From Nocardia sp. BMG51109 (GTDB taxonomy: Bacteria > Actinomycetota > Actinomycetes > Mycobacteriales > Mycobacteriaceae): DNA of 64,000 bases. A program made the position numbers and the translations under genes. The stretch is from contig NZ_JAFQ01000004.1 in the NCBI RefSeq assembly GCF_000526215.1, forward strand, positions 7,316,001-7,380,000, read 5' to 3'. Under the pieces are notes generated by a model that was not told the DNA's origin, made no database searches, and worked only from the letters and a program-made list of their open reading frames with translations. Positions within the stretch are counted from its first letter, which is position 1. Each line of letters begins with the position of its first letter. Positions 398 through 25,474 of this stretch are shown piece by piece.

Positions 398-1312
398 TCA
401 GGACGCCGGACACGTCCGGCGGTGTGCCGGGCCGATGTCGTCGCAGTATTCGGACCTGCCCATGCGCGACCGCACCGCGGCGATCGAGTAATTGCGTGCC
501 GTGTATCCCCAACTGGCCACGGCGGTATCGAAATAACGGCTGATCTCGGTACCGAAGCCCGGAGCGGCGACCTCCATGCGCTGCCGGTTGTCGGTGATCC
601 GCTGCTGCCAGTGCGCCATCGTCTGCCGGTAATGCGATGTCATGTCGGTGAGCGCCGCGATGCTGAAGCCCGCCGTCTCCAGTGCGCCGATGATCTTCGA
701 CAGGGTGACCATCGCGGTGAATCCGTAGAGACCGACGGCATGCTCGCTGCCGGGCCGATGCTCGGCGTCGGCCTGATGATCGCCGCTGCGGTAACAGGTG
801 GCGGACAGGTACAGATGGCCCTGCCGCCGCAACATACGTGCGGTTTGTGCCAGTGCGGCACCGTGATCGGGCATGTGCTCGATGACCTCCACCATCGCGA
901 TCGCATCGAACTCGGCTGCCGGTAGCGACACGTCGGGAAAGTAGCCGGTTTCGACGGTGACGAGGCCGGTGACGCCCGCCCCGGCCGCACGGTCACGCAC
1001 ATACTCCGACTGCACGCGAGACGGGGTCACCGCAGTCACCCGGCAGCCGTGCTCGACCGCCAGATACACCGCGAGACTTCCCCAGCCACAACCGATATCG
1101 AGAACCCGCTGCCCCGCACCGACATGCAGCAGCCGAGCGATATAAGCCAGCTTGTCCCGCTGCGCCTCATCCAGCGACTCACCACCGGTGCGGTACAGAC
1201 CACACGTGTACTTCATCCGGGCATCCAGGAACGCCTCGAACACCTCGGGCGGCAGATCATAATGCCGATTGGTCGCGGCAGCGGCGGCGGCACGAGTCGG
1301 CACGCTGCTCAT
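398..1312 (-). CDS. SAM-dependent methyltransferase A, cyclopropane/mycolic acid synthase family
   Basis: This 304-residue protein has the class I SAM-binding loop VLDIGCGWGSL near residues 71-81, the family signature around HYDLPPEVFEAFLD and KYTCGLY, and the conserved IEHMPDH segment. These are typical of CmaA/CFA synthases, which methylate or cyclopropanate olefinic acyl chains. Its start overlaps the stop of the acyl carrier protein gene (ATGA), so the two are translationally coupled. Residues 13-122 are encoded by a 331-bp sequence identical to that in the second methyltransferase gene at 3422, in inverted orientation, while the C-terminal halves differ clearly. A short hairpin (404-421) lies within the last codons. 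The substrate is inferred to be an ACP-bound unsaturated acyl chain, from its neighbours. Confidence 0.85.
   Translation of the reverse strand: MSSVPTRAAAAAATNRHYDLPPEVFEAFLDARMKYTCGLYRTGGESLDEAQRDKLAYIARLLHVGAGQRVLDIGCGWGSLAVYLAVEHGCRVTAVTPSRVQSEYVRDRAAGAGVTGLVTVETGYFPDVSLPAAEFDAIAMVEVIEHMPDHGAALAQTARMLRRQGHLYLSATCYRSGDHQADAEHRPGSEHAVGLYGFTAMVTLSKIIGALETAGFSIAALTDMTSHYRQTMAHWQQRITDNRQRMEVAAPGFGTEISRYFDTAVASWGYTARNYSIAAVRSRMGRSEYCDDIGPAHRRTCPAS
946..1276. repeat. Left arm of perfect 331-bp inverted repeat
   Basis: The reverse complement of this segment matches 3458-3788 at every base compared by eye, and identity stops abruptly at both ends. Both arms encode residues 13-122 of a methyltransferase in the same codon register. 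Recombination between the arms would therefore invert 1277-3457 without breaking either reading frame. Confidence 0.92.
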
Positions 1313-1593
1313 CGGTCGCTGTCCGCCAGGGCGGCGCTGATGAGGTCGACCAGATCACCGACGGTGTCGGCCGCGCGGATGGCATTGTCGTCGGCTTCCA
1401 CGTCGTACTCGTTCTCCAGCGCCGCGACCACTCGCATGAGTCGCACGGAATCCGCGGCCGGCAGCAGATCGAGCTGCTCCGATTCCGGCAACTCGTGCTC
1501 GATCAATCCCAGCTCGCCGCGAAGCTGCGCCCGCACCGAATCCAGAACCGTTGCACGCGAGGGGGTCGGCTGTTGTTGTTCTGCGGTTGCCAC
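1309..1593 (-). CDS. Acyl carrier protein
   Basis: This 94-residue acidic protein has the size and helical pattern of a discrete ACP. The segment AADSVRLM contains the DS(V/L) phosphopantetheine attachment serine, and the DNAIRAADTVGDLVDLI tail matches helices III-IV of ACPs. It lies 10 bp after the acyl-AMP ligase gene and overlaps the methyltransferase A start by 4 bp. The expected role is to carry the fatty acid activated by the ligase after being made holo, plausibly by the phosphopantetheinyl transferase at 5169. It is a pathway-dedicated ACP and not the housekeeping AcpM, which would sit in a FAS-II operon. Confidence 0.88.
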   Translation of the reverse strand: MATAEQQQPTPSRATVLDSVRAQLRGELGLIEHELPESEQLDLLPAADSVRLMRVVAALENEYDVEADDNAIRAADTVGDLVDLISAALADSDR

Positions 1594-1603
1594 GACGGCT
1601 CCT

Positions 1604-3307
1604 TCACTGTCGACCGCTCCGAGACCTCGGAACGTTGGTTGCTTCGGCCGCAGCGGCCCGGACTGCTTGCAGCCGTTGCCATTTCCCGCTGGAGGTTCTG
1701 GTCAGCCAGTGCGGGTTCACGATGTGGATGCGCACCGCGTGCAGGTCCATCGCGGCAGCGACTCGGCGGCGCACCGCGTCGACCAGACCGGGATGCTCCG
1801 GGGCCGACAGCTCGGTCTCCACCACCAGCGCGACGAGTTCCGTTCCGTCCCGGGCGGAGATCGGTGCGGCGACACAGCGCCCCCGGTATACGCCCGGGAC
1901 ATCGCGTGCGACGGCTTCGACGTCCTCGGGAAAGATGTTGCGGCCGTGAACTATCGCCATCTCCTTGCGCCTGCCTGCGATATACAGGTCGCCGCGGTGA
2001 CGAAACCCGAGGTCGCCGGTCCGCAGCCAGGGGCCGTCGAAGGCGGCGCGAGTGGCCTTGCCGTCGTGTAGATATCCGGACGTCACGGCCGCTCCGCGCA
2101 CCTGGATCTCGCCCAGTTCCTCTTCCGCACAGGGTGTTCCGCCGACACCCGTCACTCGCACGTCGATACCGGGGACCGGGCGCCCGACCGACACCAGTTC
2201 TCGTGCCGCGGAATCGCGCTCGGCAACAAGCCGGACCCGATCGCCCGTCCGCAGGCTGTCACCGTCGATACGAACGGTGCGCGGTACGGATCCCGGTTCG
2301 GGAAACGAGATGGCCAAGGTTACTTCGGCCATGCCGTACACCGGGAACATCGTCGACGGTCGAACCCCTGCCGGGCCGAGTACATCGAGGAAGCGGCGCA
2401 CCGTCGCGGCCGAGACCGGTTCCGCGCCATTGAATGCCAGTCGCCAGCGCGACAGGTCCAGGCCGGATTTCAGCACCGGTTCCGCGGCGCCGGCCAGCAG
2501 TTCGTAGGCGAAGTTCGGTCCGGTCATCAACGTTCCGTGCCGTTCGGCCAGGTATCGCAGTACGTCACCGGGCCCACGGAGAAAGTCGAACGGCGCGAAC
2601 ACATGGGATTCCGCGCCGTTGAGCATGTTCGCGAGCAGCCCGAACAACCCCATGTCGTGGTAGAGAGGCACCCACTGGATCAGTACATCGTCCGGAACCA
2701 GTGCCGCCCCCTCGATGATGGCGGACAGACCGGCCACCACATTTCCGTGCGTGAGTGTGACACCGCGGGGCGAACCTGTGCTGCCGGACGTGAATTGAAC
2801 GACTGCCGGGTCGTTCGAGTCCAACTCGGGCAGCGAGTCCAGGGTTCCGGCCGCCGACGGCGCGACGATGTCCAGAGCACCGTGCCGACTGGTCAATTCG
2901 GCCAGTAACGGTGCGTAGGCATCCGCGCCCACCAGCCTCTCGACCCCCGCGACTTCCAGGGTTCGGCACAGTCTCTCGGCATGCGCGCCGAGCTTGTTCG
3001 TGCCGAGCGGGGCCGGCAGAACCGTCACCGCCGCACCCGCCCGCATGATCCCCAGCAAACACACCAGAAGATCCGCTCCGGTCGGCGCCAGGAGGCCGAC
3101 CACGTCACCCCTGCGGACGCCGGCTTCGGCAAGCCCCCGAGCGTGACGGTCGACTGCGGCGTCGAGCTCCGACAACGTCAGAGTGGCGCCGGTCGATGGG
3201 AATATCGTTCGGGCAGTAGGAAACTCACGCGCCCGCTCGGACAATACACCGGTGATCGTATCGGCGGGAAGAACGAGCGAAGCCGCTACACGAGTATTGT
3301 CTGCCAC
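1604..3307 (-). CDS. Fatty acyl-AMP ligase-like adenylating enzyme
   Basis: This 567-residue ANL-superfamily protein has the A3 P-loop QFTSGSTGSPRGV, YHDMGLFG, an acyl-pocket region with NGAEPVSAATVRRF, the YGMAEVTLA adenine motif, and a C-terminal domain with GRRKEMAIVHGRN and FPEDVE. That combination is typical of fatty acyl-AMP ligases (FAAL), which activate a fatty acid as the adenylate and pass it to an ACP. A near-C-terminal lysine (SSGKWQR) matches the catalytic lysine of the family. The start is GTG at 3307. It heads the ligase-ACP-methyltransferase operon, and the divergent promoter region (3308-3421) is shared with methyltransferase B. The first codons contain an 18-bp-spaced direct repeat (CACGAGTATTGTC, twice). 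Confidence 0.87.
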   Translation of the reverse strand: MADNTRVAASLVLPADTITGVLSERAREFPTARTIFPSTGATLTLSELDAAVDRHARGLAEAGVRRGDVVGLLAPTGADLLVCLLGIMRAGAAVTVLPAPLGTNKLGAHAERLCRTLEVAGVERLVGADAYAPLLAELTSRHGALDIVAPSAAGTLDSLPELDSNDPAVVQFTSGSTGSPRGVTLTHGNVVAGLSAIIEGAALVPDDVLIQWVPLYHDMGLFGLLANMLNGAESHVFAPFDFLRGPGDVLRYLAERHGTLMTGPNFAYELLAGAAEPVLKSGLDLSRWRLAFNGAEPVSAATVRRFLDVLGPAGVRPSTMFPVYGMAEVTLAISFPEPGSVPRTVRIDGDSLRTGDRVRLVAERDSAARELVSVGRPVPGIDVRVTGVGGTPCAEEELGEIQVRGAAVTSGYLHDGKATRAAFDGPWLRTGDLGFRHRGDLYIAGRRKEMAIVHGRNIFPEDVEAVARDVPGVYRGRCVAAPISARDGTELVALVVETELSAPEHPGLVDAVRRRVAAAMDLHAVRIHIVNPHWLTRTSSGKWQRLQAVRAAAAEATNVPRSRSGRQ

Positions 3308-3342
3308 ACGAGTATTGTCGGCGCGTTGTCGCCCGGCGAGCC

Positions 3343-3360
3343 ATAGTACCTTGGTCCTAT
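3343..3360. promoter_or_regulatory. 18-bp palindrome, candidate operator in the ligase/methyltransferase divergent promoter
   Basis: ATAGTACCTTGGTCCTAT has arms ATAGKACC/GGTMCTAT around TT, one base short of a perfect palindrome. A near copy (16 of 18 bases) lies at 10828-10845 upstream of the P450 operon. The GGACC-TT-GGTCC core resembles boxes bound by NarL/DosR-type LuxR regulators, and such a regulator is encoded at 5829-6089. Binding is inferred, not shown. Confidence 0.55.
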
Positions 3361-3421
3361 TGTTTCACAACGGTTTCCGGTGCTGTCGTTGAGTGGTGGT
3401 TACCGACGGTTGTGAGAAACG

Positions 3422-4300
3422 ATGACGAGACAGATCAGTTCGCCCGAGGCGGTATCGGCGACCAATCGGCATTATGATCTGCCGCCCGAGGTGTTCGAGG
3501 CGTTCCTGGATGCCCGGATGAAGTACACGTGTGGTCTGTACCGCACCGGTGGTGAGTCGCTGGATGAGGCGCAGCGGGACAAGCTGGCTTATATCGCTCG
3601 GCTGCTGCATGTCGGTGCGGGGCAGCGGGTTCTCGATATCGGTTGTGGCTGGGGAAGTCTCGCGGTGTATCTGGCGGTCGAGCACGGCTGCCGGGTGACT
3701 GCGGTGACCCCGTCTCGCGTGCAGTCGGAGTATGTGCGTGACCGTGCGGCCGGGGCGGGCGTCACCGGCCTCGTCACCGTCGAAACCGCGTCGATCTACG
3801 ACATCGATCTCAGCGGACGACGGTTCGACGCAGTCGCCCTGGTCGGCGCCATCGAGCACATGCCCGACCACCGCACGGTGCTGACGACGGTGGCGCACCG
3901 GTTGCGCCGCGGCGGCCGAATGTACCTGTCGGCCAGCTGCTATCGCGACGAGTCCACCTTCGCTCGGTACGCCGACCATCCCGGCAGCAGACATGTCACG
4001 GACAAGATCTTCGGTTACGGCGTGCTCCGCCCGCTGTCCCGGCTGGTTGCCGCCGCCGAGGACGCGGGCCTGTCCGTGAGCACGGTCCTCGACCTGACAG
4101 CGCATTACCGGCGCACCATCGAGGATTGGTCGGCGCGGGCCGCCGCGCACCGGGATCGGATCGACGCGGCCGTTCCCGGACTGGCAGACGACCTCCTGCG
4201 CTACTTCACGATCACCAATTCGGGGTGGGGATACACGACGAAACAGTATGCGCTGACGGCGATTCGCTCCCGCGAGGGAGAAACGGAGCTCGTCCGATGA
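3422..4300 (+). CDS. SAM-dependent methyltransferase B, cyclopropane/mycolic acid synthase family
   Basis: This 292-residue paralogue of the protein at 398 has identical residues 13-122 (SAM-binding half) and a different C-terminal half. It retains VLDIGCGWGSL, IEHMPDH and the YLSASCYR strand of the cyclopropane/mycolate methyltransferase family. It starts at ATG 3422 in the promoter region facing the ligase gene. Its stop overlaps the start of the acyl-ACP desaturase gene (ATGA), so it heads a methyltransferase-desaturase-phosphopantetheinyl transferase operon. The divergent C-terminal half suggests a different acyl substrate or methylation outcome from paralogue A. The exact N-terminal identity points to recent gene conversion or site-directed inversion. 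Confidence 0.85.
   Translation: MTRQISSPEAVSATNRHYDLPPEVFEAFLDARMKYTCGLYRTGGESLDEAQRDKLAYIARLLHVGAGQRVLDIGCGWGSLAVYLAVEHGCRVTAVTPSRVQSEYVRDRAAGAGVTGLVTVETASIYDIDLSGRRFDAVALVGAIEHMPDHRTVLTTVAHRLRRGGRMYLSASCYRDESTFARYADHPGSRHVTDKIFGYGVLRPLSRLVAAAEDAGLSVSTVLDLTAHYRRTIEDWSARAAAHRDRIDAAVPGLADDLLRYFTITNSGWGYTTKQYALTAIRSREGETELVR
3458..3788. repeat. Right arm of perfect 331-bp inverted repeat
   Basis: Exact inverted match to 946-1276. Identity begins at GCGACC and ends at CGAAACCG, where both genes diverge at once. The arm spacing (2181 bp between inner ends) encloses the ACP gene, the ligase gene, the first codons of both methyltransferases and the divergent promoter. Confidence 0.92.
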
Positions 4301-5172
4301 CAGGTGAGCCGGATCGGCAGTCCGGATCGCTACCGGTTCTGCCGACGCTGCCGCTCGGCGACATCCGCGCGGCCGTGGCGCCGGCGGTCCAGCTCGGCGC
4401 CAGCCGCGGGTGGAGCCTGGCGGACATACCGTGGGAGAATATTCGACCGGAACTGCTGACCGACAACGACCGCTCCGTTGTCCGGTTCATCACCTTCATC
4501 GAAGATCACATACCCGGATATATGACCTGGCTGTTGGATGCCTTTCCGGTCGATGGCCGTGCAGGGGTCGACGCCGAGCAGTATGGCGTCAATCGCGAAT
4601 ACTTCAGGTTCTTCGTCGCCTGGGCCCACGACGAGGAAAGGCATGCCTCCGCGCTGACCCGCTACCAAACGGCATCGGGCATGGCGGAGACCGATGGTCT
4701 GCTGCGCGAGCTGGCTGCCGAAGGCGTCAAACATTTCAGTCTGCCGTACGAACATCCACTGCAATCATTTACGTACACGCTGTTGCAGGAAAAGGCCACC
4801 CAGCTGTTCTATCACCGCTTCCACGCGGTGGTGAACGAGCCGGTACTACGTGAGCTGCTCCGGCAACTCGGCCGCGACGAGGCCCGCCACTTCTCGCTGT
4901 ACTACCGCCTGGTCGAAAACTATCTCCGCCACAACGGAACCCGCGCGATCCCACATCTGAAGGATGTGCTGCACGGTTTCCAGATGCCGTTGTCGGAAAC
5001 GCTCACCGGCTATTGGCGGTGGTCGCTGCGGGTGGCCGACTCGGTAGGGTACGACCACACCGAGGCATACGACGCCCTGCTGCGGCTGGTCCGAGAGCAG
5101 GTCGACGCTCCGGGCGGTACCGATGCCGCCGACCTCATCGACTTCGTGTCGTCGGTGCGAGATCTGTCGTGA
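4297..5172 (+). CDS. Acyl-[acyl carrier protein] desaturase-like diiron enzyme
   Basis: This 291-residue all-helical protein has the ferritin-like diiron ligand set of plant-type acyl-ACP desaturases: E69 in FIEDHIPGY, E113-E-R-H116 in DEERH, a further glutamate in LLQEKATQLFYHRF, and a second ExxH in GRDEARHFSLYY. These enzymes introduce a cis double bond into ACP-bound acyl chains using O2 and electrons from ferredoxin. The start ATG overlaps the methyltransferase stop, and the stop overlaps the phosphopantetheinyl transferase start (GTGA). A desaturase next to cyclopropane-type methyltransferases and a private ACP fits a desaturate-then-methylate route. It is shorter than plant enzymes but similar to mycobacterial DesA proteins in general layout. 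Confidence 0.8.
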   Translation: MTGEPDRQSGSLPVLPTLPLGDIRAAVAPAVQLGASRGWSLADIPWENIRPELLTDNDRSVVRFITFIEDHIPGYMTWLLDAFPVDGRAGVDAEQYGVNREYFRFFVAWAHDEERHASALTRYQTASGMAETDGLLRELAAEGVKHFSLPYEHPLQSFTYTLLQEKATQLFYHRFHAVVNEPVLRELLRQLGRDEARHFSLYYRLVENYLRHNGTRAIPHLKDVLHGFQMPLSETLTGYWRWSLRVADSVGYDHTEAYDALLRLVREQVDAPGGTDAADLIDFVSSVRDLS

Positions 5173-5909
5173 CCACGGTCGCGGTGGTCGTCGACTGGCG
5201 CGATACACCCGCGGTGCCGTGCGATCTGCTGAATCCGGCCGAGCAACGTGTGGCACAGGGCTTTCCGGCCTGGCGCCGGCGTGAATGGACGGCCGGCCGG
5301 CTGACGGCGCACACCGCGTTGTTGCTGGCGTTCGGATACCGTGCCCACGAGGTGAACATCCTCGCCGACCTCTCCGGCGCACCGGCCACGGGCTTGCCGA
5401 GATGCGCGATTTCCTTGTCACACAGTGACTCTCTTTCGGTCGGCGTCGCCACCGACGAGTCGGCGTCCATCGGTATCGACATAGAACACGTCGACCGGCG
5501 CATAACGGCGCTTACGCCACGAATCACCGTGCCGAGCACCGTAATCCGGGATCCTCTCCACGCGACCGCGCTCTGGGCCTGCAAGGAAGCGGCAATCAAG
5601 GTCTGCCGGACCGGACCGTTCCGCATGCGGGAGTATTCGGTGAGCTTCCACGACGATGGCGCCCGGGTGGTGGTTCAGGGGCGTAGCGCGCCGCTGCGGG
5701 CATCGATCCGCCACTTCCCCGGCCTCCGTGCGCTGATGGCCACGGCGGCCGCGGCACCCGGACTCGAACCGGCCCTGATGTGCTTCGACGGCACCGGCGC
5801 TATCCGGCTGTTGGAACGATCTCACCGATCAGGGCCGTACGAGACCTCCCGCAACAACTTTGGCGATTGCCTCGGCACGGCACTGCACCGCAAGTTTCCC
5901 GTAGATTGA
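5169..5909 (+). CDS. 4'-phosphopantetheinyl transferase (Sfp type)
   Basis: The 246-residue reading starts at GTG 5169 (GTGA overlap with the desaturase). It contains ISLSHS, the Mg-binding GIDIEHVDRR and the WACKEAAIKV signature of Sfp-type transferases, which attach phosphopantetheine from CoA to a carrier-protein serine. It probably activates the ACP at 1309. The last 81 bp run antisense to the 3' end of the LuxR-type gene on the other strand, so the C-terminal ~25 residues overlap another coding region and are less certain. It is a dedicated enzyme in addition to whatever housekeeping transferase the genome has. Confidence 0.85.
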   Translation: MTTVAVVVDWRDTPAVPCDLLNPAEQRVAQGFPAWRRREWTAGRLTAHTALLLAFGYRAHEVNILADLSGAPATGLPRCAISLSHSDSLSVGVATDESASIGIDIEHVDRRITALTPRITVPSTVIRDPLHATALWACKEAAIKVCRTGPFRMREYSVSFHDDGARVVVQGRSAPLRASIRHFPGLRALMATAAAAPGLEPALMCFDGTGAIRLLERSHRSGPYETSRNNFGDCLGTALHRKFPVD

Positions 5910-6089
5910 CGTCAGATGGTTCTTCACCGTCTTCTCGCTGATGCCGAGTTGCCGACCGATTCTGTGGCTGGTCGAACCGCGGGCGGCCAATGTCAGTATT
6001 TCCAGCTCACGGGGCGTCAAGGCGCGCGGCACGGCACGATCGCATCCGGCCCTGCGCGCCGGCGTTCCCGATTCTCGAATAGCTGTCAC
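5829..6089 (-). CDS. Single-domain LuxR/NarL-type DNA-binding regulator
   Basis: This 86-residue protein is almost entirely a GerE/LuxR helix-turn-helix: LTPRELEILTLAARG, then LGISEKTVKNHLTSIYGKL. There is no receiver or ligand domain. The GTG start at 6089 overlaps the stop of the DUF1365 gene (GTGA), so it is the last gene of the minus-strand oxidoreductase operon. The recognition helix EKTVKNHL is of the NarL/DosR kind, which bind palindromes with GGAC/GTCC half-sites. The two palindromes at 3343 and 10828 fit that and make it the likely cluster regulator. Its 3' end overlaps the phosphopantetheinyl transferase gene by 81 bp, tail to tail. Confidence 0.82.
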   Translation of the reverse strand: MTAIRESGTPARRAGCDRAVPRALTPRELEILTLAARGSTSHRIGRQLGISEKTVKNHLTSIYGKLAVQCRAEAIAKVVAGGLVRP

Positions 6090-6865
6090 TGGTCGTTCCT
6101 GTCGTCTACTGATACACCGGGTTGGGCGGGATGAAAGCGACGCCTGGCCAACGGCAGGCCGAGCGAACGCAATCGCCAGGCTCGGTAATGGATGGCGACA
6201 GTCGGGCCCCAGGTACGGAGGGGGGCCGAGAGGGCCGATGACACCAGGCCACGGCCGACCCGGGCGCCGCGCACTGTCGCGACCAGCGTCGTGCGTTCCG
6301 CGCCGGAACGCATGCGCCGCAACACGACCGTGAGCGATATCGTTTCCGGCGATATCCGCCAGCGCACCAGGTATTTTCCGTCGACCGGAAGGAAAGGCGA
6401 CACGTAGAACTCCTTGGTCACGGTCGCTCGCCCACCCGGATCCGGTGGCAGCAGATAGCAATGTCGCTCGTGAAACGTGTTCCGCACTTCCATGATCACG
6501 CACACCAGGCGGCCGTCCCGGTCATGACACCAGAACAGGGACAGCGGATCGAATACATAGCCGAACGCGCGCGCTTGGGCGAGCATCAATACTCGGCCCC
6601 CGGACAGATCGATACCGTGGACGGCCAAGTAGCGGTCCACATTCGCCCGCAGCGATCGCCGCGGAGACCCGAGGTGATCGGCCGCACGAAAGCCCGTGAT
6701 GCTGCGGAACGGCGGCGGAGGAACCGGTAGGTCATCCAGATCGACCAGCCACGGGTAGTAGGTGTGCCGGTACGAATAGTGCACTCCTTCGTACCGTGTG
6801 TGCTCGAGACGACACCGATAGGCGATCGGCGCGGGAAGTCTCGAGGTGTGGCTCGCGGCGGTCAC
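6086..6865 (-). CDS. DUF1365 family protein
   Basis: The 259-residue protein starts at GTG 6865, which overlaps the preceding stop. It shows the DUF1365 hallmarks: an N-terminal RHTRxxP-like segment (RLEHTRYEGVHYSYRHTYYPWLVDLDDLP), FGYVFDPLSLFWCHD, EVRNTFHERHCYLL and KEFYVSPFLPVDGKY. The biochemical function is not established. In many bacteria DUF1365 genes sit beside a flavin amine oxidase-like gene and a cyclopropane-fatty-acyl synthase-like gene, as here, which ties it to modification of acyl chains. It is translationally coupled on both sides. Confidence 0.85.
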   Translation of the reverse strand: MTAASHTSRLPAPIAYRCRLEHTRYEGVHYSYRHTYYPWLVDLDDLPVPPPPFRSITGFRAADHLGSPRRSLRANVDRYLAVHGIDLSGGRVLMLAQARAFGYVFDPLSLFWCHDRDGRLVCVIMEVRNTFHERHCYLLPPDPGGRATVTKEFYVSPFLPVDGKYLVRWRISPETISLTVVLRRMRSGAERTTLVATVRGARVGRGLVSSALSAPLRTWGPTVAIHYRAWRLRSLGLPLARRRFHPAQPGVSVDDRNDQ

Positions 6866-8109
6866 CAGCTCGCCCCCAGCGCCTCGGCCGCCCGCATCCC
6901 GGACAGACACCCGTCTTCGTGGAAGCCCCACCCGTGATAGGCGCCGGCGAAGGCGACGTACTGATTCGACAACGCCGAAAGTGCCTGTCGTGCACGAACA
7001 CTCGTCTCCGTGTAGAGGGGATGGCTGTAGTCCGTTTTCGACAGCACCGATTCGGTCCGTATCCGATCTGTCGCGTTCAGGGTGACCAGATAGTCGGCCG
7101 GCCCGGCTGTGCGCTGTAGGCGGTTGAGGTAATACGTCATGACCACACCGTCCGACCGGGGCTCACACGAGAGCGACCGGTAGTTCCAGGCGCCCGGGCG
7201 ACAGGGAAGTACCGTGGTGTCCGTGTGCAGCACAGCCTCGTTCTGCTGGTAGGGAATTGCGCCGAGCACGTCCTGCTCGGCGCCGGACGGTGGCCTCAGG
7301 ATCGCCAGTGCCTGATCGGGGTGGGTGGCGATCACCAAGCGATCGAATCGCGACTCCACACCGTCGGCATCCAGGATCACCGCTTCCCGCGGCGACCGCG
7401 TCACCGCGCGCACCGGGGTGCCGAGCCGACAGTCGTCGACTTCCCGCACGACCCGATCCACATAGTGACGACTCCCGCCCACGACCGTGCGCCACCGCAC
7501 GCCTTCCCCGCCCCGCAGCAGGCCGTGCTGCCGCAGAAACGTGAAAAGGTAGCGGGCCGGATAGTCCAGAGCGGTACGGGAGCTGCACGACCAGACCGAG
7601 GCGACGATCGGAATCGCGATGTGAGCGATGAAGAACGCCGAAAATCCCTTGGTGGACAGGAATTCTCCGAAGCTCGTGTGCTCGTCGTCCGACGCCAGCA
7701 CACCGGCCGCCTCGCCGTTGAACCGCCGCACTTCCTCCCGGGTCCGTCGCCACACCTCCGGGTCGACACCGTCCGCGCGGTCCGGGAGGGCTCGAAGACC
7801 GCTCCCCGCCAGGAAGTCGAGCCCGCACTCGTCGCATCGCACCGACAGCGACATCTCCGACGGCTGCGTACGCACTCCCAGCTCGCCGAACAGACGCACC
7901 AGCGTCGGATAGTTCGGCTCGTTGAAGACCATGAACGCGGTATCGAAAGCACGCTCACCGCCCGGGGTTTCGACGTATTGCGTGTGGGCGTGCCCACCGG
8001 GGCGGGAGTCGGCCTCGAAAAGTGTTGTGTGATAATGGCTTCGAAGAATCCAGGCGGCGGTCAGACCGGCGACGCCCGATCCCACGACCGCCACTCGTTC
8101 GCGTGTCAT
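6862..8109 (-). CDS. FAD-dependent oxidoreductase of the DUF1365/CFA-synthase neighbourhood
   Basis: The 415-residue protein begins MTRERVAVVGSGVAGLTAAW, a Rossmann FAD-binding fold (GxGxxG), followed by FEADSRPGGHAHT and a C-terminal FAD-contacting segment (FAGAYHGWGFHEDGCLSG). It belongs to the NAD/FAD-binding, amine-oxidase-like proteins that accompany DUF1365 and cyclopropane synthase genes. The likely role is redox chemistry on a methylated or unsaturated acyl chain, but the substrate is unknown. An in-frame extension to 8247 exists but has no FAD-fold sequence, so ATG 8109 was chosen. The 174-bp gap to the upstream gene is unusually large for this otherwise overlapping operon. Confidence 0.82.
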   Translation of the reverse strand: MTRERVAVVGSGVAGLTAAWILRSHYHTTLFEADSRPGGHAHTQYVETPGGERAFDTAFMVFNEPNYPTLVRLFGELGVRTQPSEMSLSVRCDECGLDFLAGSGLRALPDRADGVDPEVWRRTREEVRRFNGEAAGVLASDDEHTSFGEFLSTKGFSAFFIAHIAIPIVASVWSCSSRTALDYPARYLFTFLRQHGLLRGGEGVRWRTVVGGSRHYVDRVVREVDDCRLGTPVRAVTRSPREAVILDADGVESRFDRLVIATHPDQALAILRPPSGAEQDVLGAIPYQQNEAVLHTDTTVLPCRPGAWNYRSLSCEPRSDGVVMTYYLNRLQRTAGPADYLVTLNATDRIRTESVLSKTDYSHPLYTETSVRARQALSALSNQYVAFAGAYHGWGFHEDGCLSGMRAAEALGASW

Positions 8110-8283
8110 CCGCCGCTCCGGACGCCGGACAGTCGACTCGGGCGGGGGAATCTGGTCATCACACCATGGTGGAACGGCCGCAGTTCGTCCGGAAGCCCGC
8201 CATGGGCATGACGGATATGAGCGCCACGCATACGACCATCCGTTCATGGGCCGCCGACACCGCCGTGACGGCGAGAGCGGCTG

Positions 8284-12366: not shown

Positions 12367-13197
12367 TCACGACTCCCGGTGGGCGGTGGCGGCGAGTGAG
12401 CCCAGCAGGGCCAGGGCCTCGCTGCTCGGGGAGGCCGGTTCGGCGTGGTAGACGACGAGTTCCTGGCCGGGGGCGGAGCGGACGTCGAAGGTCTGCATGG
12501 TCAGTGTCAGCGAGCCGACGTCGGGGTGGTCGAAGCGCTTGCCCTCCAGGGACTTGCCCCGGGCGTCGTGGGCGGCCCACAGTTCGGCGAATTCGGGGCT
12601 CTGGTCGAGCAATTCGGCGAGGGTCTGCCGGACCCGCGGGTCGTCGGGGGCCTCGCCGTGGCCGAGCCGGAAGCCCGCCGCCGAGTTGCGCGCAACCTCG
12701 TACCAGTCGCGGTAGAAGGTGCGTGCGGCCGGGTCGGTGAAGACGACGTGCATGAGGTTGCGCGAATGGGTCCAGTCGTGGAACAGCGCGTCGGCGATCG
12801 TATTCGAGGCCAGCACGTCGTAGGCGCGGTTGTAGACGATGGCGGGATTGCTGGGCCACGCCGCCATGAGCTGCAACAGGCTCGGGTCGACCTGGTCGCG
12901 CACGGCCGCCGCCCGGGCCCGGGGGCCGAGCCCGGCCAGCCGGAACAGGTGCCGGCGGCCGTCCTCGCTCAGCCGCAGCGCCGTGGACAGCGCGTCGACC
13001 ACCTGCGCCGAGGGCCTGCGCTCCCGGCCCTGTTCGAGGCGGACGTAATAGTCGACGCTGACCCCGACCAGTAACGCCATCTCCTCGCGGCGCAGACCCG
13101 GAACCCGGCGGTACCCCGTGACGGGCAGGTTCACCTCGTCCGGGCGAATCCGCGCGCGCCGGGCCCGCAGGTAGTCGCCGAGTTCGGAGGAAGCCAT
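12367..13197 (-). CDS. MmyB-like helix-turn-helix regulator
   Basis: The 276-residue protein has an N-terminal XRE-type helix-turn-helix (MASSELGDYLRARRARI, then REEMALLVGVSVDYYVRLEQG) followed by the MmyB-like ligand-binding domain (NPAIVYNRAYDVLASN, FHDWTHSRNLMHVVF, LTLTMQTFDV). Regulators of this class usually sit divergently next to the short-chain dehydrogenase gene they control. Here that partner appears to be the gene at 24704, now 11 kb away behind an insertion. The N-terminal ~46 codons and the promoter side are duplicated at 24464-24672. Longer in-frame extensions upstream are not supported. Confidence 0.88.
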   Translation of the reverse strand: MASSELGDYLRARRARIRPDEVNLPVTGYRRVPGLRREEMALLVGVSVDYYVRLEQGRERRPSAQVVDALSTALRLSEDGRRHLFRLAGLGPRARAAAVRDQVDPSLLQLMAAWPSNPAIVYNRAYDVLASNTIADALFHDWTHSRNLMHVVFTDPAARTFYRDWYEVARNSAAGFRLGHGEAPDDPRVRQTLAELLDQSPEFAELWAAHDARGKSLEGKRFDHPDVGSLTLTMQTFDVRSAPGQELVVYHAEPASPSSEALALLGSLAATAHRES

Positions 13198-13267
13198 ACC
13201 CGCATCGTAGGTCGCGGTGCCGACGGGTTCCTGGGTGCGGTACTCCCAGGAGATCACCGGCCTCCCA
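13059..13267. repeat. Left copy of 209-bp direct repeat bounding the island
   Basis: Matches 24464-24672 at a constant offset of 11405 bp, with two mismatches found by eye (cagtaAcg/cagtaGcg and gaatcCgcg/gaatcTgcg). It covers the start of the MmyB-like regulator gene and its upstream region. Outside the repeat, the left copy continues natively into the full regulator gene, and the right copy continues natively into the dehydrogenase gene. Confidence 0.9.
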
Positions 13268-13573
13268 TCCCAGTTGCGTGCAGCAACGGCGTAGTCCACT
13301 GCCACGATCCGGACCGGGTTGGCGGCTCGAACCGATTCCGCCACAAACCACCTCACACTCTCGACAGCAACTACCACTGTCGAAGAGTGGAGCAATCCCC
13401 GCACCCCCCGCCAGATCCCCGGCGGCGGGTCACCCAACCCCGGCGAACGTTCGTGGTCAACGCACTAGTTCGCTGGAAATCAGCCACTGCGTTGTCGTGG
13501 TCCTAATGTGTCGGTGTCTGTTCTGAAGTATCGTCGGAAATCATCTTCGTGAACAATGGGGGCATGTACGACG
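13198..13573. other. Gene-free stretch at the left island junction
   Basis: This 376-bp stretch holds the promoter side of the 209-bp repeat (to 13267) and then unique island sequence up to the XRE gene. No credible coding frame is seen: the open frames here are antisense or extensions of neighbours. It includes a short inverted repeat (CGACAGCAACTACCACTGTCG) near 13362 and the promoter of the XRE-TPR gene. Confidence 0.5.
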
Positions 13574-23390: not shown

Positions 23391-24370
23391 TCGAGGGTTA
23401 TCCCTCGCTGGACTGCGGCGGCTTCGAATTCTTCGGCCGGAATCATCCGTCGGGCCATGAGCCGACGTCGCGCGCGGGCTTCGTCGCTGTGGCTGTCGGT
23501 GACATCGAAGCACTCAGCGATCAGGGAGACGTCGTGCTGGAGCATCTCGCCCCAATGATGATCTCCATTTACCTCGTGGCGCGGATGCCGGACCAATGGC
23601 AAGGAGGTCGTGAACTCCCGCAGATCACGAGTCTCGGTGGGTGCGATCGTGCACCACTGGCTGACGTTGACCCAGCCCTCGTCGAGAAGCATCTGCTCGC
23701 CATGTCCGACCAGCTGCCACGCCAACGGCGGGAAGAACACCGAGGCCCAGGTCATCAACACACGGGGATTCCCGTCTGGCGTACGGTCGGTCGATCGTGG
23801 CCCGCTGATGTAGCCACCCGCGCCGGTTCCCGAAATGTACGCTGTCTTTCCTTTGGTCATGGCAAGACACAGTTTCCAATCGGCGGGAAGCGTCAACTTT
23901 GAGGCCGGATCGAGCAGACGTGGCACATCGGGCCATTCCTGGCGAAGCATGACTGTCGTCGCGCACATCCCGGCCAGAAGTGACCGGGCTACCGCGCCGG
24001 GGCTGAACGCCATCGACGGTATCGGCATGGGGCCGGACGACGGCCGGGTCAGCGACGCGAGCCACAGCGGTCGCAACGCGGCGGCGAGTTGACCGTAGGC
24101 AGGATCGAACACCCGGCCCGCAGCGGAGTTGCATGACCGGCACTGGCCGAGGAACCAGATCCCGCCTTCGTCGGCGCGTCCCAGGGTGACGGTGCTGCCG
24201 GTGCGCATCCAATGCCCTCGTGTTACCGCGCCCTCATTACCCGCGCACTGCGGCGGCACGTGCGCCTTACTCATCTTGGCGACCGTGCCGCACACGCCAC
24301 ATTCGTAGCGGCCTCTCCTGGTTCGGTAACCCATTGCCAGGCGGGTTCCGGGGCGATCGGTCCGGGCCAC
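23387..24370 (-). CDS. HNH-like zinc-finger protein, first gene of the candidate defence cassette
   Basis: The 327-residue protein starts at GTG 24370 just after GAGGAGA. It carries C24-x2-C27, an AHVPPQ motif (H37), then C77-x2-C80-N81, the spacing of HNH endonucleases with two zinc knuckles (CxxC...H..P...CxxCN). The third HNH histidine is not evident, so it may be a degenerate or novel variant. The middle and C-terminal parts (LPADWKLCLAMTKGKTAYISGTG, WGEMLQHDVSLIAECFDV) are unrecognised. ATGA overlap with the nuclease-motif gene argues for a two-subunit complex or matched dosage. Confidence 0.6.
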   Translation of the reverse strand: MARTDRPGTRLAMGYRTRRGRYECGVCGTVAKMSKAHVPPQCAGNEGAVTRGHWMRTGSTVTLGRADEGGIWFLGQCRSCNSAAGRVFDPAYGQLAAALRPLWLASLTRPSSGPMPIPSMAFSPGAVARSLLAGMCATTVMLRQEWPDVPRLLDPASKLTLPADWKLCLAMTKGKTAYISGTGAGGYISGPRSTDRTPDGNPRVLMTWASVFFPPLAWQLVGHGEQMLLDEGWVNVSQWCTIAPTETRDLREFTTSLPLVRHPRHEVNGDHHWGEMLQHDVSLIAECFDVTDSHSDEARARRRLMARRMIPAEEFEAAAVQRGITLE

Positions 24371-24440
24371 GTCTCTCCTCGGTCATGTCGGTGATCGGTA
24401 GATTGTCGCGCTACCCACCGACATCTCCGCGCACAGGCTA

Positions 24441-24602
24441 TTAAGGAGTGTGTAACCGACATGTGACCCCGACCAGTAGCGCCATCTCCTCGCGGCGCAG
24501 ACCCGGAACCCGGCGGTACCCCGTGACGGGCAGGTTCACCTCGTCCGGGCGAATCTGCGCGCGCCGGGCCCGCAGGTAGTCGCCGAGTTCGGAGGAAGCC
24601 AT
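24441..24602 (-). pseudogene. Truncated copy of the MmyB-like regulator gene
   Basis: The first 46 residues match the N-terminus of the regulator at 12367 (one substitution, R to Q, in the ARRAxIRPDE segment). At 24464 the homology stops inside the helix-turn-helix, and the frame ends a few codons later. It lacks the recognition helix and the ligand domain, so it is not a functional regulator. It is the second half of the island's direct repeat and still sits divergently from the dehydrogenase gene. Confidence 0.85.
24443..24471 (+). repeat. 29-bp direct repeat, right copy flanking the three-gene cassette
   Basis: AAGGAGTGTGTAACC followed by GACATGTGACCCCG; 26 of 29 bases match 18806-18834. 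Its last eight bases coincide with the left end of the right 209-bp repeat, so the cassette boundary and the island boundary fall at the same point. Confidence 0.65.
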
Positions 24603-24672
24603 ACCCGCATCGTAGGTCGCGGTGCCGACGGGTTCCTGGGTGCGGTACTCCCAGGAGATCACCGGCCTCCCA
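24464..24672. repeat. Right copy of 209-bp direct repeat bounding the island
   Basis: Copy of 13059-13267 with two mismatches. To its right the sequence runs straight into the dehydrogenase gene, which is the natural neighbour of an MmyB-like regulator. Recombination between the copies would delete about 11.4 kb and restore a regulator/dehydrogenase divergent pair. Confidence 0.9.
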
Positions 24673-24703
24673 CCGCCGTCGGCACCCGGCCATCGTGGTG
24701 GAC

Positions 24704-25474
24704 ATGACTTCGGATCGAGCAATTCTCCCCGGCTCGGCGACGGGCAAAGTGGTGGCCGTCACCGGGGCCAGCAGCGGAATCGGCGAGGCCGTCGCCGCCC
24801 GGCTGGCCGGTGCGGGCCATCAGGTCTTCGCCGGTGCGCGACGGACCGACCGGCTGGACGCGCTCGCCGAGCGCACCGCGGCGAGCGCCGCCGACTCCGG
24901 CGGCGGCCTGCATCCGGTCCGGCTCGACGTGACCGACCGCGCGGACGTCGCCGCCTTCGTCGAGACCGCCCGCGAACGGACCGGCCGCATCGATGTCCTG
25001 ATCAACAATGCCGGCGTCATGCCGCTGTCCCGGCTCGACGCGCTGCTCGTCGACGAGTGGGACCGGATGATCGACGTGAACCTCCGCGGCCTGCTGCACG
25101 GAATCGCCGCCGCCCTACCGCATTTCACCGCACAGGGCGCAGGCCACTTCGTGACCGTCGCGAGCGTCGGCGCCCACGAGGTGGTGCCGACCGGCGCCGT
25201 CTACAGCGGCACCAAGTTCGCCGCCCGGGCGATCACCGACGGGCTGCGCCAGGAATGCGATCCCGCGATCCGGGTCACGACCATCTCGCCCGGCGTCGTC
25301 ACCTCCGAACTCGCGGACACCATCACCGATCCCGGCGCGGCCGCGGCGATGGTCGCCTACCGGGCGAACGCCATCGCACCGGACGCCATAGCGGCGGCCG
25401 TCTCCTACGCCCTCGACCAGCCCGCCGACGTCGACGTCAACGAGATCGTCGTCCGTCCGGCCCGGCAGCGCTGA
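24704..25474 (+). CDS. Short-chain dehydrogenase/reductase
   Basis: The 256-residue classical SDR has the cofactor loop TGASSGIG, the NNAG motif (INNAGVMP) and the YxxxK pair in VYSGTKFA. It catalyses NAD(P)-dependent oxidation or reduction of an alcohol/carbonyl, substrate unknown. It lies beside the truncated regulator copy and was probably controlled by the intact one at 12367 before the island inserted. The next gene is a second SDR 25 bp downstream. Confidence 0.88.
   Translation: MTSDRAILPGSATGKVVAVTGASSGIGEAVAARLAGAGHQVFAGARRTDRLDALAERTAASAADSGGGLHPVRLDVTDRADVAAFVETARERTGRIDVLINNAGVMPLSRLDALLVDEWDRMIDVNLRGLLHGIAAALPHFTAQGAGHFVTVASVGAHEVVPTGAVYSGTKFAARAITDGLRQECDPAIRVTTISPGVVTSELADTITDPGAAAAMVAYRANAIAPDAIAAAVSYALDQPADVDVNEIVVRPARQR

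Follow-up and report, generated by a model that had tools for sequence, protein, structure and literature searches.

In PKS/NRPS clusters, internal gene conversion is an established cause of concerted evolution (PMC4256081; also mentioned in PMC9205934). As PMC4256081 describes it, paralogous parts of one cluster are repeatedly homogenised and branch together by cluster in trees, and the locus presented here behaves in the same way. In the PKS/NRPS case, however, the parts concerned are domains of modular synthases, whereas here they belong to two stand-alone, diverged tailoring enzymes and are confined to the first half of each. Moreover, the tracts found here are inverted, so that an exchange between them can invert the DNA lying in between. 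In the pneumococcal hsdS (cod) locus, inverted repeats within coding sequence are flipped by a dedicated recombinase, PsrA (PMC7096588, PMC12324116). As here, those repeats lie in paralogous coding genes and their inversion generates hybrid genes. PsrA is a tyrosine recombinase, whereas no match to PF00589 or PF00239 lies within ~0.5 Mb of the present locus; likewise, hsdS inversion alters protein specificity, whereas here it would mainly change the operon partner, with 12 codons swapped.

With regard to biosynthesis, FAAL-ACP-desaturase loading cassettes are known, such as that formed by jamaicamide JamA and its partners (PMC11837247). In cassettes of this type, to which the present locus is alike, a stand-alone FAAL loads a free-standing acyl carrier protein (ACP) and the desaturase works on the bound chain; the locus differs from them in its PF03405 desaturase and two CMAS-family methyltransferases. 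BfaA/BfaB, a methyltransferase and an FAD oxidoreductase, give 10-methyl stearic acid (PMC5660069). Here too, genes for a CMAS-like methyltransferase and an FAD oxidoreductase are neighbours, but there are two methyltransferases, and the presence of an ACP and a FAAL suggests that the substrate is ACP-bound. Among the matches listed in a search of open-access literature, covering titles and the openings of abstracts, there was no account of this locus or of a comparable invertible actinomycete cluster.

Gene content and order

The window, that is, the whole 64-kb stretch of DNA analysed, lies within an 8.53-Mb contig of a genome of 8,787,999 bases in four contigs, from a soil bacterium. Near its left end, three minus-strand genes follow one another, encoding a FAAL-like fatty acyl-AMP ligase (1604-3307, 567 aa; PF00501, E 4e-64), an ACP (1309-1593, 94 aa; PF00550, E 3.4e-6) and a CMAS-family methyltransferase with an A-type body, MT-A (398-1312, 304 aa; PF02353, E 2.1e-39), whose start overlaps the ACP stop in the bases ATGA. 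A 114-bp divergent gap (3308-3421), presumed from its position to hold promoters, separates the FAAL gene from three plus-strand genes, for a second CMAS-family methyltransferase with a B-type body, MT-B (3422-4300, 292 aa; PF02353, E 3.7e-46), an acyl-ACP-desaturase-like protein (4297-5172, 291 aa; PF03405, E 1.1e-18) and a 4'-phosphopantetheinyl transferase-like protein (PPTase; 5169-5909, 246 aa), the PF01648 match of which (E 1.4e-5) is barely above the cut-off. Further on, again on the minus strand, lie a LuxR-type regulator ORF with an uncertain real start (5829-6503; PF00196, E 5.4e-17), a DUF1365 protein (6086-6865; PF07103, E 3.2e-54) and an FAD-dependent amine-oxidase-like protein, AO1 (6862-8247; PF01593, E 7e-20). 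The two methyltransferases score 135.9 and 158.1 bits against PF02353 (cut-off 27), and MT-A was assigned to the A type through its C-terminal identity to the A gene of Nocardia sp. NBC_00403 (G148). The name FAAL should be read as FAAL-like, as it rests on the adjoining ACP and on sub-cut-off matches to NCBIfam FAAL/acyl-CoA ligase subfamilies (PRK07768, 391 bits with a cut-off of 572; PRK09192 fatty acyl-AMP ligase, 336 with a cut-off of 600); a search of genome contigs with the FAAL yielded distant ligases only, and these loci were left out of the comparison. We propose that MT-A and MT-B act together in one FAAL-ACP-desaturase cluster.

Comparable loci occur elsewhere in several arrangements. 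In G148 the genes are collinear, in the order AO1, DUF1365, FAAL-MT-B fusion, desaturase, ACP, MT-A and an acyltransferase-like gene; the methyltransferase halves are not homogenised, and ACP and MT-A share the same 4-base start-stop overlap as in the window. The fusion is a single 860-aa ORF (L151, 8201-10783), a natural ligase-methyltransferase protein. Five loci with a single methyltransferase, three from Nocardia (G016, G001, G026) and two from Streptomyces (G1474, G1119), have the order FAAL .. ACP, methyltransferase, desaturase, which is the order that a flip would produce in the window. A Streptomyces clavuligerus plasmid locus (L198, 7274-12020) runs from FAAL through a methyltransferase to an acyl-ACP desaturase and then an IS116 transposase gene, with neither an annotated ACP nor a second methyltransferase in the stretch, and in three further Nocardia loci (G169, G157 and G139; L152, L153 and L154) a P450 replaces the methyltransferase, the order being FAAL, P450, desaturase, ACP.

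Inverted-repeat arms and paralogue homogenisation

The two methyltransferase genes carry the arms of an inverted repeat. The left arm (946-1276, read on the minus strand in MT-A) and the right arm (3458-3788, plus strand, in MT-B) are each 331 nt long, 100% complementary and separated by a spacer of 2181 nt; both correspond to codons 13-122, beginning with the first base of codon 13 and extending over 110 codons plus one base. Upstream of the arms the two proteins agree at 2 of 12 residues; within them all 110 residues and all codon bases, third bases included, are identical; beyond them identity drops to 39.6% over 169 aligned residues and to 55% of bases. The earlier note had described exact inverted copies in a shared register within otherwise diverged genes, and this description holds. 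A sharp-ended, near-perfect tract within diverged paralogues, extending to silent sites, is the pattern by which gene conversion is recognised. As there is no difference across 331 bp, the last exchange between the arms must have been recent (divergence below ~0.9% at 95%, by the rule of three).

Full-length copies of the arm occur only at these two places in the 8.79-Mb genome, the third match covering 37 bases at 86%. The arm pair is the only exact inverted repeat of at least 24 bp in the window, and none was found in a 0.8-Mb sample of the chromosome, taken as 40 pieces of 20 kb, which rules out a chance origin. Direct repeats are present in the same sample. The longest, of 618 bp, is exact and lies at 12648 and 18163 of L225 (G000:C4:4100001-4120000), in a ketosynthase-like coding stretch; shorter runs, of 172 and 162 bp, accompany it, a pattern that homogenised PKS modules would be expected to show. 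In the window itself, 13060-13267 and 24465-24672 form a near-exact direct repeat of ~208 bp, with uninterrupted matches of 76 and 116 bases, which is part of an MmyB-like regulator gene (12367-13437; PF17765) and recurs in a short ORF (24271-24762) adjoining an SDR-like gene.

Judged from their sequences, MT-A and MT-B are old paralogues. A simple recent duplication is ruled out, given that the C-terminal halves are old and that the A and B types stand apart in other genomes; it follows that only the N-terminal parts are young. Nine A/B pairs, spotted among the matches listed, were compared: eight with both genes on the same contig (the MT-B of G148 being taken from genome DNA) and one, from Streptomyces sp. 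NRRL B-1347, on two contigs. In four of the nine, including the present genome, A and B share an identical N-terminal part but have kept distinct C-terminal parts; counting same-contig pairs, the proportion is three of eight. The homogenised tract comprises residues 13-122 in this genome, 13-89 (77/77) in a genome represented by a 552-kb contig and 36-94 (59/59) in S. pathocidini, and the C-terminal parts of A and B in these three pairs are 39-50% identical. The other five pairs are not homogenised and show 52-59% identity over residues 13-122; they include G148, where both genes are collinear, and two pairs (on 988-kb and 19-kb contigs) that are so close to each other as to be hardly independent. 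In NRRL B-1347, two partial proteins with the same start residue share 33 identical residues and then diverge, each on its own contig (8,972 and 6,645 bases), which looks like an assembly broken at a repeat. Nocardia thraciensis has a partial MT-B (75% identity over 191 residues) that starts at residue 102, within the arm region; as a hint of a repeat this is only suggestive.

When the homogenised lineages are compared with one another, residues 13-89 agree at just 51-60 of 77 positions, so the tract must have been homogenised, or re-homogenised, separately in each lineage. In both halves of the C-terminal tree S. pathocidini is sister to the 552-kb-contig lineage, and an older homogenisation event shared by these two is therefore possible. 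The trees, built from 43 sequences by a quick method with SH-aLRT values only, leave many deep N-terminal forks unresolved, but the relevant groupings are recovered: the C-terminal tree separates the A types, as one clade (13 rows, SH-aLRT 99), from the B types, while in the N-terminal tree the two proteins pair within the genome in the present case (identical), in the 552-kb-contig genome (92) and in S. pathocidini (97). That copies from several lineages group by genome within the tract but by paralogue elsewhere is what concerted evolution produces, and we regard recurrent homologous exchange between the paralogues, rather than a single duplication, as the real process to which these sequences point.

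A leave-one-out profile scores residues 13-100 of the arm as B-like and 101-122 as A-like, a weak signal, as MT-A is atypical outside the arm too (residues 123-170 score -22.5, where the mean for A types is +60.2). A head-type score intended to distinguish parental from flipped joins was set aside as uninformative for this genome, the A-head scoring -4.0, just outside the A-head range, and the B-head -6.5. Searches for further A/B pairs returned matches in 2 of 397 genomes of the order at the limit used, in 28 of 394 genomes of the class (the best outside this genome at 51%, and the loci listed having a Frankia protein as best or near-best match), in 16 of 297 genomes of the family of G223, with one match each, and, among 16 plasmid records, in S. 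clavuligerus with its one methyltransferase; no additional pair was found in any of these sets.

Orientation of the FAAL-ACP segment

The arrangement suggests the following mechanism. MT-A and MT-B flank FAAL-ACP as inverted genes, and repeated exchange between the two copies maintains the identity of their first halves, presumably through RecA-type recombination; a recombinase would be unneeded, as homologous recombination needs no dedicated one. Exchanges resolved without crossover would appear as gene conversion, and those resolved with crossover would invert the 2.2-kb FAAL-ACP segment. Each flip would swap the outer block behind FAAL-ACP, namely the MT-A body against the MT-B body, desaturase and PPTase, and would also exchange codons 1-12 between the methyltransferases. 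When the flip is carried out in silico, the frames of FAAL, ACP and both methyltransferases stay intact, and FAAL, ACP and a methyltransferase with A-head and B-body are placed before the desaturase and PPTase, thus reproducing the five-gene order and the codon swap that had been predicted from the window.

The earlier note had further assumed that a divergent promoter is carried on the inverting 2.2-kb segment. Recombination between the arms is feasible and the inversion works in silico, but the promoter is represented by the 114-bp gap, and a simple sigma-70 scan found no site at 3200-3500. In either orientation this same gap remains upstream of FAAL, ACP and both methyltransferases and, to judge from their position, of the desaturase and PPTase too, so that a flip would switch nothing off; it would re-pair genes with presumed promoters and silence none. 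As for recombinases, the genome contains 13 matches to PF00589, the nearest ~0.53 Mb from the locus, and four to PF00239, none closer than 3.9 Mb in contig coordinates; within ~0.5 Mb, the search of these two tyrosine and serine recombinase families gave nothing, at variance with a site-specific switch.

Comparison of the orientation in relatives, which had been suggested as a check, gave a partial answer. The protein clusters of MT-A and MT-B in the protein database each hold one member sequence on one contig, from the single genome of the species. Among 392 Streptomyces genomes searched, three contain a strong relative of MT-B. One of them, G1116, is a draft of ~740 contigs with the same gene set as the window's locus; it is a close relative of S. 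pathocidini, whose A and B methyltransferase bodies it matches at 163/166 residues each. Its contig C285 (6,601 bases) carries a B-head on the minus strand at the left edge, identical at 43/43 positions to residues 1-43 of the S. pathocidini B protein and divergent from FAAL, and then, on the plus strand, FAAL, ACP, methyltransferase, desaturase and PPTase. In this methyltransferase, residues 14-35 are A-type (20/22 to A, 16/22 to B), whereas after the shared tract residues 95-122 are B-type (26/28 to B, 9/28 to A) and are followed by the B body (163/166). The A body (163/166) lies on a second contig, C97, on the minus strand, at a contig edge inside the repeat; its first 43 bases match the repeat, and it adjoins LuxR, DUF1365 and AO1. 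S. pathocidini, by contrast, is unflipped as judged from its protein joins, which are read from proteins and not from DNA: P0024 joins A-head to A-body and P0046 joins B-head to B-body.

G1116 thus appears to show the predicted flipped join, with the methyltransferase between ACP and desaturase made of an A-head and a B-body. In this draft two contigs end within the repeat, which is ~195 bp long and whose middle is found once in C285 and is absent from C97; with one copy of the repeat missing, a mis-join is possible. The LuxR-type gene adjoins DUF1365 in G1116 too, but the LuxR-DUF1365-AO1 block lies next to PPTase in the window's genome and next to the A body in G1116, which implies that this one flip is not all that separates the two.

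Possible readings and their meaning

We consider it probable that MT-A and MT-B are paralogues kept identical in their first halves by repeated exchange that is also able to invert FAAL-ACP. The inversion itself has probably happened in nature, the support coming from one draft assembly, G1116. MT-A and MT-B would then form a flip-competent, concertedly evolving paralogue pair.

The strongest competing reading, to which we give real but clearly lower weight, is that of gene conversion only: all exchanges would be resolved without crossover, no inversion would occur, and the G1116 join would be a short-read mis-assembly. Conversion, put forward from the start as the conservative alternative, accounts for the identical arms and has to form part of any answer; taken alone, it leaves the join in G1116 unexplained, except in the case of an assembly error. 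Such an error would fit contigs that break in the repeat with one repeat copy missing, although the one path that the assembler crossed unbroken is the recombinant one. In the window, the ATGA junction of ACP and MT-A and the adjacency of MT-B and desaturase match G148, as expected if no flip has been fixed. PKS/NRPS domains are known to evolve in concert through conversion (PMC4256081), and the window's genome has its exact direct repeat of 618 bp within ketosynthase-like coding sequence. On the other hand, with copies that are inverted, some exchanges are expected to end as crossovers.

Less likely still are the readings in which the flip serves as a switch within a population. It is doubtful, if conceivable, that Nocardia and Streptomyces alike possess a recombinase-free switch between 'FAAL-ACP-MT-A plus MT-B-desaturase-PPTase' and 'FAAL-ACP-MT-B-desaturase-PPTase plus MT-A', yielding two lipid products per population. 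A regulated phase-variable operon switch, with both orientations in one culture choosing between two acyl-modification pathways, seems to us unlikely. The geometry permits it, all frames survive the flip, and the flipped order equals the natural collinear order of the five single-methyltransferase loci; but no match to the two recombinase families searched, PF00589 and PF00239, lies within ~0.5 Mb, and no gene loses its upstream divergent gap on flipping, so that the phase-variable choice of pathway originally envisaged finds no backing here. That diverged paralogues were wrongly collapsed in their first halves during assembly of the window's genome is most improbable, as both copies lie within the 8.53-Mb contig of a four-contig assembly and the same pattern recurs in independent genomes.

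Should the flip prove real, this would be a biosynthetic cluster that re-wires operons through ordinary homologous recombination of its paralogous enzyme genes, without a recombinase, and recurrent conversion would keep the arms ready for it. Product heterogeneity in actinomycete clusters would become testable by one PCR, and short-read assemblies of such clusters would have to be read with the warning that they may break or mis-join at the repeat. Even without flips, the locus offers a clean case of concerted evolution limited to one half of a diverged enzyme pair.
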